Positions 1 to 32,291 of a stretch of DNA of 43,363 bases are shown piece after piece. Source of the DNA: a virus; the IMG/VR virus record IMGVR_UViG_3300049456_000062, positions 1-43,363 of that record; one strand, 5' to 3'. The stretch's first letter is position 1; every line of letters begins with the position of its first letter. The notes under the pieces are model-generated. The model ran no database searches and had not been told where the DNA came from. It worked only from the letters and a program-made list of their open reading frames with translations. The position numbers were made by a program, and so were the translations under genes.

Positions 1-117
1 GAGCCGTTCGAGACGCTGGGCGAGTCGCTCTCGCTGCCGCCGAACTACGAGCGCTACCGCGACGAGGTCGAGAAGATCCTCACGCCCCTGCCGAACCCGC
101 GCCGTGCTCGTTCGTGA
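1..117 (+). CDS. Ring-cleaving dioxygenase, C-terminal end (host, partial)
   Basis: The window opens inside this gene. The last 38 residues contain LSLPPNYERYRDEVEKILTP, which resembles the C-terminus of VOC/glyoxalase-fold ring-cleaving dioxygenases of the MhqE/MhqO type (usually about 310-320 residues), enzymes that open hydroquinone or catechol rings. Its stop lies 14 bases inside the next gene, so the two are translationally coupled. The adjacent esterase is the usual partner in mhqED-like operons, which supports the call. Only the tail is visible, so catalytic metal ligands cannot be checked. Confidence 0.6.
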   Translation, partial: EPFETLGESLSLPPNYERYRDEVEKILTPLPNPRRARS

Positions 118-415
118 GCGGCCGCCGTCCGGTGAGGCCGAAGGCGCGCTCGTTCTCTTCCACGGTCGCGGCGCTGACGAGGACGATCTCTTCCCGCTCC
201 TCGACGCGCTCGACCCGGACCGGCGGCTGCACGGCTACACGCCGCGGGCGCCGCTCTCGCTGCCGCCGGGCGGCGCGCATTGGTACATCGTGCCGCGGGT
301 CGGCCACCCCGACCCGGCGACGTTCCACGCGGCATACGCCGAGGCCGGCGAATGGCTCGACTCGCTCCCGCACGAGCGGATCGTGCTCGGCGGGTTCTCT
401 CAGGGCTGCGACTAG
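104..415 (+). pseudogene. Carboxylesterase/phospholipase 5' half, split by prophage
   Basis: Alpha/beta-hydrolase of the phospholipase/carboxylesterase (MhqD, YodD) group. GTG start at 104 overlaps the dioxygenase. The 103 residues include the oxyanion-loop motif LFHGRGADEDDLFPL (about residues 18-32) and end in the nucleophile elbow GFSQG followed by Cys-Asp and a stop supplied by phage DNA. Intact relatives are about 200 residues; the Asp and His of the catalytic triad are missing here, so this half should be inactive. The rest is at 43237-43363 in the matching frame. Excision at the 10-bp core would rebuild the gene exactly. Confidence 0.88.
401..410. other. attL: attL core
   Basis: CAGGGCTGCG is shared with attR. 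To its left is host esterase sequence, to its right phage sequence. Joining the phage sides gives an attP of GTCGCAG-GG-CTGCGAC, a perfect 7-bp inverted repeat about a central GG (404-405 here). Such a small symmetric site fits a large serine recombinase, whose crossover occurs at a central dinucleotide. The exact crossover bases are inferred from symmetry. Confidence 0.9.
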
Positions 416-428
416 ACTTCCACCCGGC

Positions 429-1895
429 ATGAAGCCGGTAGACCTCTACGTCCGCGTGAGCCGCGTCGGCGGCCGTGAACACCTCATCAGCCCCGACGAG
501 CAAGAACTCCGCGGACGGCAGCTCGCTGAACAGTACGGCCTCACCGTCGGCGAAGTCGTCGTCGACCTTGACGAGTCCGGCGGCAAATGGGAACGCCCCG
601 GCCTGCAGAAGGCCCTCGCACGGGTCGAGCGCGGCGAGTCCGGCGGCGTCATCGTCGCGTGGCTCGACCGGCTCAGCCGCGACAGCGAACACGCGCACAC
701 GCTCATCCGCAGGATCGGCGACGCCGGCGGCCGCATCTACGCGCCCGACGCCCCGTCCGACTGGACGAGCCCGGAAGGAGAACTCCAAGCCGGGATCCTC
801 TTCGCGTTCGCGAGCTACATCCGGAAGCGCGCACAGGCGGGGTTCGAGCGGGCGAAGGAACGGTCGATCGCGAACGGCGTCCCGATCTCCTCCACGACTC
901 CTGTCGGCTACCGCCGCGGCCCGGATCGGCGGCTCGAGCCGGATCCCGACGTCGCGCCGATCGTCCGCCGGATCTTCGAAGCCCGGGCCGAAGGTGCGGA
1001 GCCGCAAGAGCTCGCCGCCATCTTCGAGAACGCCGGCATCACAACCGCACGCGGCTCCACCGTTTGGACACGCCAGACGCTCTACTGGCTCCTGGGCAAC
1101 CGCGTCTACCTCGGCGAGCTCACCTACGGCAAAGACGGCCGCTTCACCAACCCGGCCGCGCACGAGCCGATCGTCGACCTCGTCACCTTCCAGAAGGCGC
1201 AAGCCGGATCCGGTCCCGGCCGGAAGCCGAACCGCCGCTACCTCCTCGCCGGCCTGCTCCGCTGCGAGGCCTGCCGGTACTGCATGAGCGGCACACCCGA
1301 GACGACCACCCGGCTGATCTACCGATGCGACCGGCGCCGGCCCGGAGGCATCTGCCCCGCCCCCACACGAATCACCGTCGAACGCGTCGAAGCCGCAGTG
1401 CTCGCCGACCTCTTCCCGCACCTCCCGAAGCTCACCGTCCGCGGCCGCGGCAACCGCAGCGACGGCAAACTCGACGAGCTCGCCCAGCGTGTCGCGCGCT
1501 CCCGCACGGCGCTCGCCGGATGGAGCAGCCCCGCCATCCAAGCCGAAGTCGGCGACCTCGACCTGTACGTCGCCGGGCTGCGCGAACGCCGACAACAACT
1601 CGTCGCCGACGAACAAGCGCTCGCCGCAGAACAAACGATCGACACGACCGCTCACCAGCTACCCCCCGGCATGACCTGGGAACAAGCCTGGGACGCGATG
1701 ACGCTCAACGAACGCGTCGGACTGCTCGCCACCCGGTACGACTGCATCAGCCTAAGCCGCAACCCCGACCGCCTTATCGTCTACCCGATCGGCGCCGGCC
1801 CCGACGACCTCCCACGGCGCGGCTACACCCGCAACCCCATCCTCCGCGGGTTCAGCGACAACATCCCAAACGACGCCAGGGAACTGACGCTGTAG
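429..1895 (+). CDS. int: Large serine integrase
   Basis: Site-specific recombinase that inserts and excises the prophage. ATG at 429 gives 488 residues, normal for the family. The resolvase fold begins YVRVSR with nucleophile Ser11 and Arg9; the LDRLSR motif is at 79-84. A recombinase domain follows (about 155-255), then a zinc ribbon with Cys279, Cys282, Cys285, Cys300 and Cys309, and a C-terminal helical region. It starts 18 bp from the attL core, the typical attP-int arrangement. No clear Shine-Dalgarno precedes it; the truncated esterase ends 13 bases upstream in the same direction, so in the lysogen it is probably transcribed from the host operon. Excision would need a directionality factor not identified here. 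Confidence 0.97.
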   Translation: MKPVDLYVRVSRVGGREHLISPDEQELRGRQLAEQYGLTVGEVVVDLDESGGKWERPGLQKALARVERGESGGVIVAWLDRLSRDSEHAHTLIRRIGDAGGRIYAPDAPSDWTSPEGELQAGILFAFASYIRKRAQAGFERAKERSIANGVPISSTTPVGYRRGPDRRLEPDPDVAPIVRRIFEARAEGAEPQELAAIFENAGITTARGSTVWTRQTLYWLLGNRVYLGELTYGKDGRFTNPAAHEPIVDLVTFQKAQAGSGPGRKPNRRYLLAGLLRCEACRYCMSGTPETTTRLIYRCDRRRPGGICPAPTRITVERVEAAVLADLFPHLPKLTVRGRGNRSDGKLDELAQRVARSRTALAGWSSPAIQAEVGDLDLYVAGLRERRQQLVADEQALAAEQTIDTTAHQLPPGMTWEQAWDAMTLNERVGLLATRYDCISLSRNPDRLIVYPIGAGPDDLPRRGYTRNPILRGFSDNIPNDARELTL

Positions 1896-9126: not shown

Positions 9127-9299
9127 GCCGCCCGAAGCTCCTTGACCTTCGTCTCAAGACGGACGACAGCGGCGCTGATCCTTTCGACGGCGACGTCGAC
9201 GTCGTCACCCTCGATCGCAGCCGCTGCTTCGGCGAGATCGCCGCGGACGTGATCGATGCAGGCGAGAAGGCCACGCTTCATCAGGAGTCCGCGGTTCAT
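9123..9299 (-). CDS. Small hypothetical protein
   Basis: 58 residues, start MNRGLLMKRGLLACIDHVRG and a helical C-terminus (AVVRLETKVKELRAA). Its ATG overlaps the repressor stop (ATGA) and its stop overlaps the next GTG, so it is an integral member of the repressor operon. Function unknown. Confidence 0.68.
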   Translation of the reverse strand: MNRGLLMKRGLLACIDHVRGDLAEAAAAIEGDDVDVAVERISAAVVRLETKVKELRAA

Positions 9300-9676
9300 A
9301 CGAGCTCCCGCTCGTCCGTCGACGAAGGCGTCTCCTCTGCCGCGCGATCCGCAAGCCGAAGCAGCGGGTCGAGCGCGGCGATCAACTGCTCCATGCCCTC
9401 AGCCATCGTCGCGAGCGCGTTGCTGAACCGCTCGCGGCCGAGTTCGACCTCATCGAGCTTCTCCGGCTCCCCCTGCAGCCATTCCCGAGAACACCCGTAG
9501 AGCACGCTCATCCGCTCGAGCAGATCGAGCGAGACGTTTGCGCGGCCGTTCTCGATCTTGTTGAGGGTGACGCGGTTGACGTTCAACGCGTCGGCGGCCT
9601 CGCCCTGGCTTAGATTGCTGGAGACGCGAGCCTGCGCGACGCGAACCTGGTCAACGGTATAGCCGGGGCGAGCCAT
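9296..9676 (-). CDS. XRE-family phage repressor
   Basis: 126 residues. Residues about 22-66 form a Cro/CI helix-turn-helix (LSQGEAADALNVNRVTLNKI then ENGRANVSLDLLERMSVLYG). The C-terminal part is helical, with no peptidase domain, so it is not a LexA-type self-cleaving repressor. ATG at 9676 has no Shine-Dalgarno; a promoter with TTGACA places the start of transcription at or near the ATG, so the mRNA may be leaderless. It faces another HTH gene across the operator region, as expected for the master lysogeny regulator. Confidence 0.85.
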   Translation of the reverse strand: MARPGYTVDQVRVAQARVSSNLSQGEAADALNVNRVTLNKIENGRANVSLDLLERMSVLYGCSREWLQGEPEKLDEVELGRERFSNALATMAEGMEQLIAALDPLLRLADRAAEETPSSTDERELV

Positions 9677-28910: not shown

Positions 28911-30587
28911 CTAGACGGCCATGAACTTGCCGGTCTTCTTGCGCTTCATCTTCGGGAGCGCGAGACGCCGGGCTGTACGAGCGAGCATCACGGCCGGGAC
29001 CGAGTCGATCTTGCGCGGCGACTCACGGCTCTCCTTGCCGACCGTGGTACCGAAGTTGTTCGGCCGGCGGCGCGCGTTGTGAAAGTGCTGGCCGACGACG
29101 GCGTTGCCGTCATGCCAAAACGCCTTCTCGACGATGTCGGTGTGCAGGCGTTCGATCTCGACAGTCGTGTCCTTCGTCCGCCCGCGCATGTCCCACGCGA
29201 CCGCGTGCTTCTCCGACGCCTTCACGAGCAGGCGTTGCCGGTAGAGCTGCGCCCACTTGTCGACGTATGACTCGAACGGGTGCAGGTCGGAGAAGTACGC
29301 AACGACCTGGAAGCACTCGAACGTCGATTGGACGACGTCGTCGATTAGCTCGCGCGGTGCTTCGTCACCGAATAGCGCTGGATCCCAGACGCCGACCGTG
29401 AAGACGAAGCCGTCCGATATTCGGCAACCCATGAGCGCGGAGTGATCGTCGGTCAGTGACCAGTCACCGCCGAGCGCGATCGCCTGGCCGAACTCGACGG
29501 GCTCGATCTCCTCGCCGTTCTCGATCGCGATCTCGATCGAGCGGCGATCCCACTCGAACGGCTCGATCCATGCGTCCTCAGCCGCGACCATCTGATTGAG
29601 GTAGAAGCGGCGGGAGGACGAGACGCTATTCCGCGGGTCGTAGATCGTCGCGACGTGACGCTCGATGTCGAGCCAGTTCGAGTCGCCGCGCGCCGCTATG
29701 AGGCCGGCGCGGAGCTGCAGCTCGTCGGCGATGTCGATGTCCGGCGGCGCTTCAAGCGAGTCGTAGAGGAACCCGGTCGCGCGCGACTTGCCTTGATCGA
29801 TCGCCTGCCACGCTTCGTAGTCGTGCTCGGCATCAGAATCCTCGCCAGGTTCATGCGCGTTCGAGATCGCGAGCACGCGCGCGGCGCCGTCGCGTGACTT
29901 CGTCGCGTTGCGCTCGATCACCTCGGCCATGTCGTGGCCCTCGTTGTTGGCGAGCCAATGCTGCGTCTCGTTCTTGAGCGTGAACGTTGAGCGCGGCCCT
30001 TCCAGTGCGCGCGGACTCGAGGTGACCGCTTCGAGCCGGCACTTGCCGTGGTGCGCGTAGAGGAGCTCCTTGCCGAGATCGATCGAGTATTCGTTGAGCG
30101 CCGCGTCCGAGAAGAGCGCGGGAAACAGGGTCATCGTGTTGCGCGTCTGATCCTTCGCGACGGCCGTTGTTAACACCCACGCCGCCGGGTGTGGCATCGC
30201 GACGGGCTCGCCGTTCGCGTCCCAGCCCGCGAAGCGGCAAGGGCCGACGAACTCGGTGGCCATCAGCGTCGCGCCGACCGGATCCTTCCCCCAGCCCTTG
30301 ACCCGCCGGAGCATCCCGGAGCGATAGACCCAGCGGCCGTGCTCATCGATGGCAAACCACCAGAGAATGAACCGAGCCTGCTCGTCGGTGTAGCGCCACG
30401 GCTCACCAGCAGCGGGGCCGTCCGGCTGCCTCAGATACTCGGATGTCCACCCGAGGACTTCCCAGCCGAGCGTCCGCTCCGGAAGGAGCCATGCGCCGGT
30501 CTTTGAGTCACGCTGCCAGGTCGGCCCGATCGCGACGGGCTCGAACTCGAGCTGCGCCTCAGCCGCCTTCCTAGCCACTCTTGCCAC
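28911..30587 (-). CDS. terL: Terminase large subunit
   Basis: 558 residues. The ATPase Walker A-like motif reads VKGWGKDP (96-103), with Asp in place of the canonical Ser/Thr after Lys, a variation also known in actinophages. WVLTTAVAKDQTRNT and the QHWLANNEGH coupling-type motif follow. The nuclease domain has IALGGDWSLTDDHSALMGCR (metal Asp). It drives DNA packaging and cuts concatemers. Overlaps TerS by 17 bases. Confidence 0.93.
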   Translation of the reverse strand: MARVARKAAEAQLEFEPVAIGPTWQRDSKTGAWLLPERTLGWEVLGWTSEYLRQPDGPAAGEPWRYTDEQARFILWWFAIDEHGRWVYRSGMLRRVKGWGKDPVGATLMATEFVGPCRFAGWDANGEPVAMPHPAAWVLTTAVAKDQTRNTMTLFPALFSDAALNEYSIDLGKELLYAHHGKCRLEAVTSSPRALEGPRSTFTLKNETQHWLANNEGHDMAEVIERNATKSRDGAARVLAISNAHEPGEDSDAEHDYEAWQAIDQGKSRATGFLYDSLEAPPDIDIADELQLRAGLIAARGDSNWLDIERHVATIYDPRNSVSSSRRFYLNQMVAAEDAWIEPFEWDRRSIEIAIENGEEIEPVEFGQAIALGGDWSLTDDHSALMGCRISDGFVFTVGVWDPALFGDEAPRELIDDVVQSTFECFQVVAYFSDLHPFESYVDKWAQLYRQRLLVKASEKHAVAWDMRGRTKDTTVEIERLHTDIVEKAFWHDGNAVVGQHFHNARRRPNNFGTTVGKESRESPRKIDSVPAVMLARTARRLALPKMKRKKTGKFMAV

Positions 30588-31074
30588 CCGACGCGAGCCG
30601 GTCGCGGTAGTCCGCGATCGCCGTCACGCCGGCAGGCTTGGTGTCGGGCGTCCCGCCGCGCTCAAGCTCGAGCCGCACGCGGCGTCGATCGGCCTCGGTC
30701 GTGAGCAGGTCGGTCATACCCGACTGCACAGCCGAGAGGAGCATCGCCGAGAACTTCTGACGCTGCTTCAGGTTGCGGCTCATCGCCTCGGCGATGTAGC
30801 GGGCGTACTGCCAATCCGACGGCTCGTAAAACTGCGACTGCCCCGACTGACCGAGCGAGAGGTACCAGTCACGCGCGATCGGATGCCACGTCGATTCGGG
30901 CGCGGGGATCTCCACTGTCTTCGCGATCTCGACGGTAACCGTCTCCACCTTTGAGTCGGCGTTTCGGCGGCGGCGCTCGGTCGACCGCTTGGGCACAGGC
31001 CCTCGCGTGCCAGCTGGGCCGCGGCGAGTGGTTGCCGCAGACTTCTTGGACGTGCCTGACTTCGGCGTTGCCAT
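30571..31074 (-). CDS. terS: Terminase small subunit
   Basis: 167 residues from ATG at 31074, with AGGAGG upstream. Basic N-terminus GTRGPVPKRSTERRRRN as in many actinophage TerS proteins, then WHPIARDWYLSLGQSGQSQF and DWQYARYIAEAMSRNLKQR. Binds the packaging site and recruits TerL. The in-frame region upstream of 31074 is probably not translated. Confidence 0.88.
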   Translation of the reverse strand: MATPKSGTSKKSAATTRRGPAGTRGPVPKRSTERRRRNADSKVETVTVEIAKTVEIPAPESTWHPIARDWYLSLGQSGQSQFYEPSDWQYARYIAEAMSRNLKQRQKFSAMLLSAVQSGMTDLLTTEADRRRVRLELERGGTPDTKPAGVTAIADYRDRLASGGKSG

Positions 31075-31160
31075 TTTGACTCGAACCTCCTGGGTTCGGG
31101 TTCCGTCAGGCCGCCTCGGCCTGACGTTCAGTGCGTCGATCACGGCGACAAGTGGGGCAG

Positions 31161-31521
31161 TTAGCGGTAGCCGCTTGCCACGCGCACGAGCTGATGCCCG
31201 CGGTGGCATCGCTTTTTCCGAGAGTTGATCGAGGCCACCGTGACCTCGCTTCGCAGCAGGTTCACTTGACGCGTTACGGGCTCAAGGTGCGCCGGGTTGA
31301 CGCAGGCCCGATTGCGGCAGAGGTGATCGAGGTCGAGGCCGTTCGGAACCTGTCCGACCAAGCAGCTCGTAGATCACGAGGTGCGCGCCACGCACCGACG
31401 CACCTACTCGGATCTGGCCATAGCCGTCGCGGAGGCTCGCGAGCCACGGCCAGCATTCGGCCCCGTCAGGCTCGCCGATCTTCGCGCTAATCCGTTCAGG
31501 GAGAGTGTCGAGTGTGAGCAC
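31161..31521 (-). pseudogene. HNH endonuclease gene with a frameshift
   Basis: Start GTG at 31521 follows GGAGG. The first frame encodes ECWPWLASLRDGYGQIRVGA and VIYELL, the second VGQVPNGLDLDHLCRNRACV NPAHLEPVT. Joined at about 31360-31365 with one base skipped, they form a normal zinc-containing HNH protein of about 120 residues (motif DHLCRN...CVNPAHLE, then CHRGHQL). Without a +1 shift translation enters a basic run and ends near 31282. Single-base insertion, sequencing error or programmed +1 shift are all possible. HNH proteins next to terminase often act in packaging. Confidence 0.82.
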
Positions 31522-31617: not shown

Positions 31618-31920
31618 TCATCCCCCAGGGGTCAGACCAGGGTGCGCCTCGGTTGGTCGCTTGCGCGGCGGCCGATGAGAGCTCGTCGCGCGGTTGCACT
31701 CCGCATGCTCCGGACCTGCGTACCGCGTCGGGTCGCCGTCCACATGGCCAAGATCCCATTCGGCGTCGGCGGCGATGAGGCCAGCGATGCCATCGACGGC
31801 GTACTTGCATTGCGCACCGCGCGCGCACCTAACTGTGCCGGTGGCTACGCGACGCGCCTCGCGTGCGCGCTTGCGTCTGTGGTCGCGGCCGTAGTCCGGC
31901 TCGTTGTTCGCGTTGCTCAT
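31618..31920 (-). CDS. Second HNH-like protein
   Basis: 100 residues from ATG at 31920 (SNANNEPDYGRDHRRKRARE). The core RCARGAQCKYAVDG, WDLGHVDGDPTRYAGPEHAE, CNRATS is the actinophage HNH pattern (Cys pair, WDLGH, GPEH, CNRA). The ATG lies six bases past the tmRNA 3' end and has no Shine-Dalgarno, so translation start is uncertain. Probably involved in packaging or recombination with the nearby terminase. Confidence 0.78.
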   Translation of the reverse strand: MSNANNEPDYGRDHRRKRAREARRVATGTVRCARGAQCKYAVDGIAGLIAADAEWDLGHVDGDPTRYAGPEHAECNRATSSHRPPRKRPTEAHPGLTPGG

Positions 31921-31925
31921 GGGCA

Positions 31926-32247
31926 TGGAGCCGGCGGGAATCGAACCCGCGTCCGACCAGGACGTACAGCAGCGCCGTCTACCAGCTTCCGGGATGGCAT
32001 GTGCCACCTCCACCAGAGCGCCGTCTATTCCCGGCTCGAGTCACCCGGTCTGTCCCGGGCGTCGCGGCAAGTGATGCTCGACTTAGGCCGCTGCGGCGAG
32101 GTCGAACTCGCGAGAGAGCGAGGTCGACACGGATGCGTGCTCGAATGAGTTCGCATTTCGTGGTGTGCCCGGCTGGGCCAGTGCGGTAGGGCGCAACCCG
32201 CTGGAGCGCTTCTGTCGTTTCCTCGCCGTCGAAACCAAGGCGGCCCC
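31926..32247 (-). ncRNA. ssrA: tmRNA (transfer-messenger RNA)
   Basis: 322 nt. The 5' end GGGGCCG (32247-32241) pairs over seven bases with CGGCTCC (31933-31927) before discriminator A at 31926; CCA is not encoded. After the acceptor comes TTGGTTTCGACGGC, the conserved tmRNA 5' motif; before the 3' acceptor come GGAC and the T-arm GCGGG-TTCGATT-CCCGC. The tag frame runs from resume codon GCG at 32154 (preceded by CGAAAT) to TAA at 32083-32085: 23 residues starting ANSFEHA and ending DLAAAA. It rescues stalled ribosomes and marks peptides for proteolysis, with host SmpB. Confidence 0.93.
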
Positions 32248-32249
32248 TC

Positions 32250-32291
32250 AAAAAGAAAAGCCGCCTGCTCGTTTCAGAGCATGCGGCGGCT
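32250..32291 (-). terminator. Intrinsic terminator just before the tmRNA
   Basis: Minus-strand stem AGCCGCC(gca)TGCTC / GAGCA-GGCGGCT with six-base loop, then TTTTCTTTTT. The T-run ends two bases before the tmRNA 5' end. It would end transcripts from the 33879-32358 operon. A second hairpin without T-run (CCTCAC...GTGAGG) lies at about 32323-32353. Confidence 0.88.

Follow-up and report, generated by a model that had tools for sequence, protein, structure and literature searches.

The 43,363-base virus record analysed here (the window) carries on its minus strand a complete one-piece tmRNA (ssrA) gene that is probably functional, heading the packaging block of the phage. Its RNA would be charged by the host, depend on SmpB and tag peptides with the 23-residue sequence ANSFEHASVSTSLSREFDLAAAA, which would then be degraded more slowly, or by another route, than host-tagged products. 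An earlier sequence-only reading had proposed a full ssrA gene rather than a tRNA remnant at this position and had named a covariance-model search as the check. That search (Rfam cmscan) aligns RF00023 over its full length, model positions 1–374 of 374, to 32247–31923 on the minus strand with 54.5 bits and an E-value of 8e-19, above the curated cut-off of 47 bits, and the tmRNA is the sole RNA found by Rfam in the record. ARAGORN calls no tmRNA in the window, and this miss, together with the modest Rfam score, weighs against a functional tmRNA.

The individual parts are consistent with the assignment (Table 1). The tRNA-like domain comprises a perfect 7-bp acceptor stem, a T-arm and a discriminator A, and the stem bears G3-U70, the pair that marks alanine tRNA. 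The window contains a single copy of the T-arm block, with 0.00 expected by chance. CCA is not encoded at the 3′ end, where TGC stands instead. As is characteristic of a tmRNA, the RNA encloses an internal frame that follows a GCG resume codon (32154–32152) and is closed by TAA (32085–32083). The acceptor pairing, the TGGTTTCGACGGC motif, the T-arm and the 23-residue frame described from the letters are thus all present; the strand, left unstated there, is the minus strand.

Table 1. Coordinates of the tmRNA gene, its elements and neighbouring features in the window
Feature	Position	Strand	Observation
tmRNA (ssrA) gene	31926..32247	-	322 nt, first acceptor base to discriminator A; RF00023 and sequence
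Acceptor stem, 5′ side GGGGCCG	32241..32247	-	full pairing with CGGCTCC at 31927-31933, G3-U70 included
Acceptor stem, 3′ side CGGCTCC	31927..31933	-	discriminator A at 31926
T-arm GCGGG-TTCGATT-CCCGC	31934..31950	-	pairing invariant in five sequences
TGGTTTCGACGGC, tmRNA D-loop-like motif	32225..32237	-	aligned to RF00023
Helix P2, 5′ side (AGCGCTCCAGC)	32200..32210; 3′ side 31971-31986	-	all cells pair, four sequences
Helix TGCG/CGCA, pseudoknot-1 position	32182..32195	-	both-side changes in 2 of 4 pairs
Tag frame GCG...TAA, ANSFEHASVSTSLSREFDLAAAA-stop	32083..32154	-	C-terminal part like L110 and L002 tags
First helix after tag, CGCCCGG/CCGGGTG	32042..32061	-	7 pairs, both-side changes in three
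Second helix after tag, GAGC/GCTC	32016..32037	-	both-side change in one pair
Third helix after tag, hairpin near GGTGGCACATGCCATC	31993..32008	-	both-side changes in two pairs
HNH-endonuclease-like ORF	31618..31926	-	phrog_1808, E 6e-5; start ATG 31926 or ATG 31920
Terminase small subunit (TerS)	30571..31209	-	Pfam Terminase_7, E 3e-47
Terminase large subunit (TerL)	28911..30587	-	phrog_9, E 2e-64
Large serine recombinase	114-1895	+	left end of contig, ~30 kb from tmRNA
Strong hairpin followed by TTTTCTTTTT, terminator-like	32250..32290	-	fold -24.3 kcal/mol, z -3.78; ends right before tmRNA

The same RNA occurs in four related phage contigs. Among 80 viral contigs with a related TerL, L002 is the closest by large terminase (75%) and carries the tmRNA in the same place, while L110 (on contig G081), L106 and a partial copy in L098 were added by pattern searches. 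In the alignment of these five sequences a 53-pair structure fits 99.6% of cells, a percentage biased by the fact that the structure was drawn partly from the same alignment; for that reason, pairing-preserving changes on both sides of a base pair constitute the stronger evidence. Such changes occur in 8 of the 53 pairs against a shuffle mean of 2.3, and none of 500 shuffles reaches 8. Sliding the partners out of register lowers pairing to 35–47%. Four covarying helices lie around the tag, the pairs of the acceptor stem and T-arm are invariant among the aligned relatives, and three pairs of helix P2 vary on one side only among four sequences. Moreover, each of the four full sequences has an A at −4 relative to the resume codon. 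A fold obtained from RNAalifold only was rejected for its implausible path through the tag region, and the named helices were tested instead.

The window, G081 and L002 have the gene order tmRNA, HNH-like ORF, TerS, TerL in common, and homologues of the HNH-like ORF hold the same position in L119 (61%) and L002 (56%). In L106, the tmRNA is flanked by a different large terminase and by a portal gene, and the copy in L098 precedes a portal gene; these neighbours differ from those in the window, G081 and L002, so the RNA has moved between packaging modules, yet it stays adjoining them. The compensatory changes in the fold, combined with the gene order kept in relatives, indicate that the window tmRNA is a maintained gene and not a remnant. 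In a tree of 36 tmRNAs, the window clade joins L174, L090 and L183 apart from the sampled hosts, with a support of only 0.77 for the join. A contig scan with a conserved 20-mer matched four records, none of them at a tmRNA, and a blastn search with the window RNA found no match in phages or plasmids. In L002 a tRNA-Met directly precedes the tmRNA, and in L106 a tRNA-like sequence is visible by eye before it, at which ARAGORN makes no call. A permuted-tmRNA call by ARAGORN in L002 was dropped as an artefact of treating the cut-out as circular.

The tmRNA is embedded in phage genes, the contig containing terminase, portal, protease, capsid, tape measure and helicase genes. Downstream on the same strand follow the HNH-like ORF, TerS, TerL, the portal, a VG15-type head maturation protein and the major capsid protein, with a tape measure gene and an endolysin beyond the capsid gene; a Pfam search of the HNH-like ORF gave no match. 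The opposite flank of the tmRNA contains a replication-initiation gene, two DNA methylases, a helicase and genes whose DNA-binding signals are weak. The HicA-like operon placed there by the sequence-only reading was not recovered, the upstream neighbours giving weak helix-turn-helix matches or none. The best sequenced-phage matches of the terminase are Streptomyces phages, phages of Actinobacteria make up most of the 1,676 records that it matches, and the packaging genes are of actinophage type. The serine recombinase makes a temperate phage likely, and an HTH_3 gene at 9296–9676 is a second sign of that life style. The description of the stretch as a prophage goes further than this; the record itself is a virus contig in which no host flank was recognised.

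The hairpin ending immediately upstream of the tmRNA resembles the terminator of an upstream operon, although a simple terminator scan did not pick it up, and an ordinary promoter has no room before the tmRNA. Its position weighs against a functional tmRNA. At the other end, the HNH-like start lies at, or no more than 6 nt from, the tmRNA 3′ end (window 31906–31926), so that the HNH-like mRNA would have almost no leader once the tmRNA was excised; in G081 the HNH-like start is likewise a few bases from the tmRNA end.

The window tag ends in AAAA (LAAAA), without the LAA ending of the host-type ALAA. The tags of the relatives, GNDHMDRSASDLTFPKEWAREYDLVAA in L002, ANDMDRSASDLTFPTEWVREFDLVAA in L110 (read from the homologous GCG, the ARAGORN start being two codons earlier) and ANENDRSVTDEYVAAGLAELEAFANSNVLVAA in L106, to which the L098 tag is nearly identical, comprise 26–32 residues, and none has an LAA ending. 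The frame is open in all five sequences, and the lengths differ by whole codons. Phage tags thus end in forms such as LAAAA and LVAA, whereas host tags mostly end in ALAA, and none of the nine long tags compared has the leucine that host tags typically carry at −3.

A search of the L106 tag against 50,697 phage records returned a sole match, the annotated tmRNA of Phabba (two records of one phage), at an E-value of 2; this value is not significant alone, and what counts is that the sole match falls in frame at a tmRNA tag and that interior shuffles never reach the L106–Phabba score. The two tags are identical at 16 of 26 aligned residues, 9 of those 16 being encoded by different codons, with pS 0.72 and pN 0.23 (Fisher p 0.0004 on rounded counts). 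Judged from these comparisons, the L106 and L098 tags are homologous to that of Phabba, with L106–Phabba amino acids conserved while codons drift. Additionally, contig L174, which scores 126 bits with the model built from the five sequences, carries the tag ANDMDASVTCPDFIPDWVMEEAAVLV, resembling those of L110, L090, Phabba and the C1 phages.

The window tag itself, at 23 residues and without an LAA ending, falls within the long-tag group as delimited by these two features (at least 20 residues, no LAA ending). Its likeness is confined to L110 and L002, chiefly at REFDL, which is also close at the DNA level, and selection on it is therefore not claimed. With L110 it has only the C-terminal part in common (p 0.003); pS is 0.47 and pN 0.37, giving no clear purifying selection, and no significant similarity is found to Phabba (p 0.94) or C1 (p 0.99). 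The window would accordingly be tied to the C1/Phabba tag group only through the close relatives of its RNA. A tblastn search of phages with the window, L110 and Bxz1 tags gave no match, the queries being so short that a miss means little; the Bxz1 tag was later matched by annotated records.

Among 86 distinct ARAGORN tags from 118 viral contigs that have one T-arm sequence in common, some of which may be prophages with a host gene, the median length is 13 residues and 11 reach at least 20, in line with the earlier remark that a 23-residue tag is uncommonly long. Some of these calls are wrong by eye, the L183 tag being more likely ANVNSFALGHVLAKHSDLAFSA and that of L193 ANTDNVVYANFGEGVSDAPTQMSEPTPWAPMAIAA. 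Of 75 short viral tags, 49 have an LAA ending, versus 2 of 11 long ones (p 0.006, relatedness not corrected for). At 30 actinobacterial loci, selected for their resemblance to the phage RNA, 24 of 31 host tags end in ALAA with a median of 9 residues, and nearly all sampled Actinomycetota tags have 8–10 residues, mostly 9–10. The phage model reaches at best 51 bits against 296 genomes of one actinobacterial phylum, compared with 312 bits for the window, which is itself part of the model. This gap, and the fact that two other phage contigs with related terminases carry the RNA at an equivalent position, make it unlikely that the window tmRNA is the host's own displaced ssrA.

In the proposed mechanism, host alanyl-tRNA synthetase would charge the phage tmRNA via G3-U70, and host SmpB and EF-Tu would bring it to stalled ribosomes. 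No SmpB was found in the window, where the sequence-only reading had advised looking for it, or in 13 further phage records that carry a tmRNA, and host SmpB would therefore be used. The ribosome would resume at GCG, append ANSFEHASVSTSLSREFDLAAAA and halt at TAA, and stalled ribosomes would be released late in infection if the RNA is then expressed. Under E. coli degron rules, an LAA ending is what ClpXP reads best. Because the phage tag is without it, the tagged peptides would probably be degraded more slowly, or by another route, than host-tagged ones; host ClpXP may thus recognise the phage tag less well than the host tag.

A different origin would make the gene a recently acquired host ssrA, taken up, for instance, when excision was imprecise or as an attachment-site copy, and devoid of phage function. 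Tyrosine-integrase phages do use ssrA as an attachment site (PMC3203893), and ssrA fragments are known from prophages (PMC9004378). The window gene, however, is full length and retained at the equivalent position in G081 and L002, its recombinase is a serine enzyme at the opposite contig end, and no sampled actinobacterial tmRNA is closely alike; covariation and conserved position weaken this origin further, and it is very improbable. The related idea of an attachment remnant, a partial 3′ copy beside an integrase, was rejected, the gene being full length and the recombinase some 30 kb off. It is also unlikely, if slightly less so, that the RNA acts as a competitor that absorbs SmpB and blocks host trans-translation instead of tagging. 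An RNA of little more than the tRNA-like domain does inhibit tmRNA, and phage DS6A encodes one (PMC4131195), but a decoy would need no tag, whereas the tag frame here is open in all five sequences with whole-codon length changes and the L106–Phabba tag amino acids are conserved.

The fate of the tagged peptides leaves more room for other readings. The long tag could be a normal or even better degron that clears host or phage fragments, perhaps through a protease other than ClpXP, a possibility we regard as a minority one: the window tag still ends in small residues, and the conservation of long-tag sequences in L106, L098, Phabba and the C1 phages suggests that something reads the tag body, but the leucine at −3 is missing from every long tag compared. 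On a comparably tentative footing, the window may represent the small-phage member, seated in a packaging operon, of an actinophage tmRNA lineage whose long tags (22–32 residues) are selected as peptides and are more than a ClpXP degron; such tags might protect tagged peptides or pass them to another partner. Slower or other-route degradation following tagging by a functional phage tmRNA is the reading we prefer. Why phages carry their own tmRNA is an unanswered question, and long tags that avoid the usual degradation ending while their amino acids are conserved across otherwise different phages render it testable.

The survey also met several other tmRNAs and showed that some phage tmRNAs escape standard annotation (ARAGORN) or are called wrongly by it. 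Mycobacterium phage Estes carries an unannotated tmRNA (NC_053514.1, ~57219–57582; L131:668–1031; 99 bits) whose likely tag, AAFVAADYAVGV, is also without LAA, and downstream of it lies a GOLLD RNA match (L131 1629–2028, 170 bits) with its 3′ end cut by the stretch. A second long-tag family in viral contigs (L189:3057–3356, L176:3790–4088 and L179:3189–3485) has ITESALRNK inside the tag and a VAA end. Unannotated permuted, two-piece tmRNA genes are present in Caulobacter phage CcrPW, Stenotrophomonas phage DLP_6 and Tunturiibacter phage Tunturi_4 (L132, L133 and L136), that of Tunturi_4 coming after an RF-1-domain release-factor gene.

Phage tmRNAs as a class are already known, as the sequence-only reading had said, and the long-tag group is the part deserving attention. 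A 2014 list comprised ten phage tmRNAs, among them the one from DS6A, which barely extends beyond the tRNA-like domain (PMC4131195). A survey published in 2022 counted 402 phage genomes with a tmRNA among 18,146, suggesting roles in the upkeep of hijacked translation or in (selective) host-protein degradation (PMC9004378). In the part of the literature covered, no paper on conserved long tags was found. The cluster C mycobacteriophages (Bxz1 type), with the tag ATDTDATVTDAEIEAFFAEEAAALV annotated in Blubba and JayJay, likewise have a phage-borne one-piece tmRNA with a tag of ~25 residues and no LAA ending; they are ~155-kb phages with an RNA of 400–435 nt in a tRNA array, whereas the window virus has 43 kb and an RNA of 322 nt adjoining the terminase. 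Phabba, whose tag ANDNDATVTEADFAEIEAFANDSVLV is homologous to those of L106 and L098, close relatives of the window RNA, differs from the window in carrying a tmRNA of 397–399 nt within the tRNA array of a 164-kb phage. Streptomyces BE-type phages also have an actinophage tmRNA, but their tags, such as ANSNVASAYALAA, are short with a host-like ALAA ending, unlike the window tag. The methylophage Melnitz and its relatives contain a complete ssrA in the phage genome, as does the window, yet the Melnitz tmRNA is permuted, two-piece and under a glutamine riboswitch (PMC9004378). Host Actinomycetota tmRNAs belong to the same RNA family and have the same overall plan as the window tmRNA, from which they differ in their length of ~345–400 nt, against 322 nt, and in tags that have 8–10 residues in nearly all sampled cases and mostly end in ALAA, against 23 residues.
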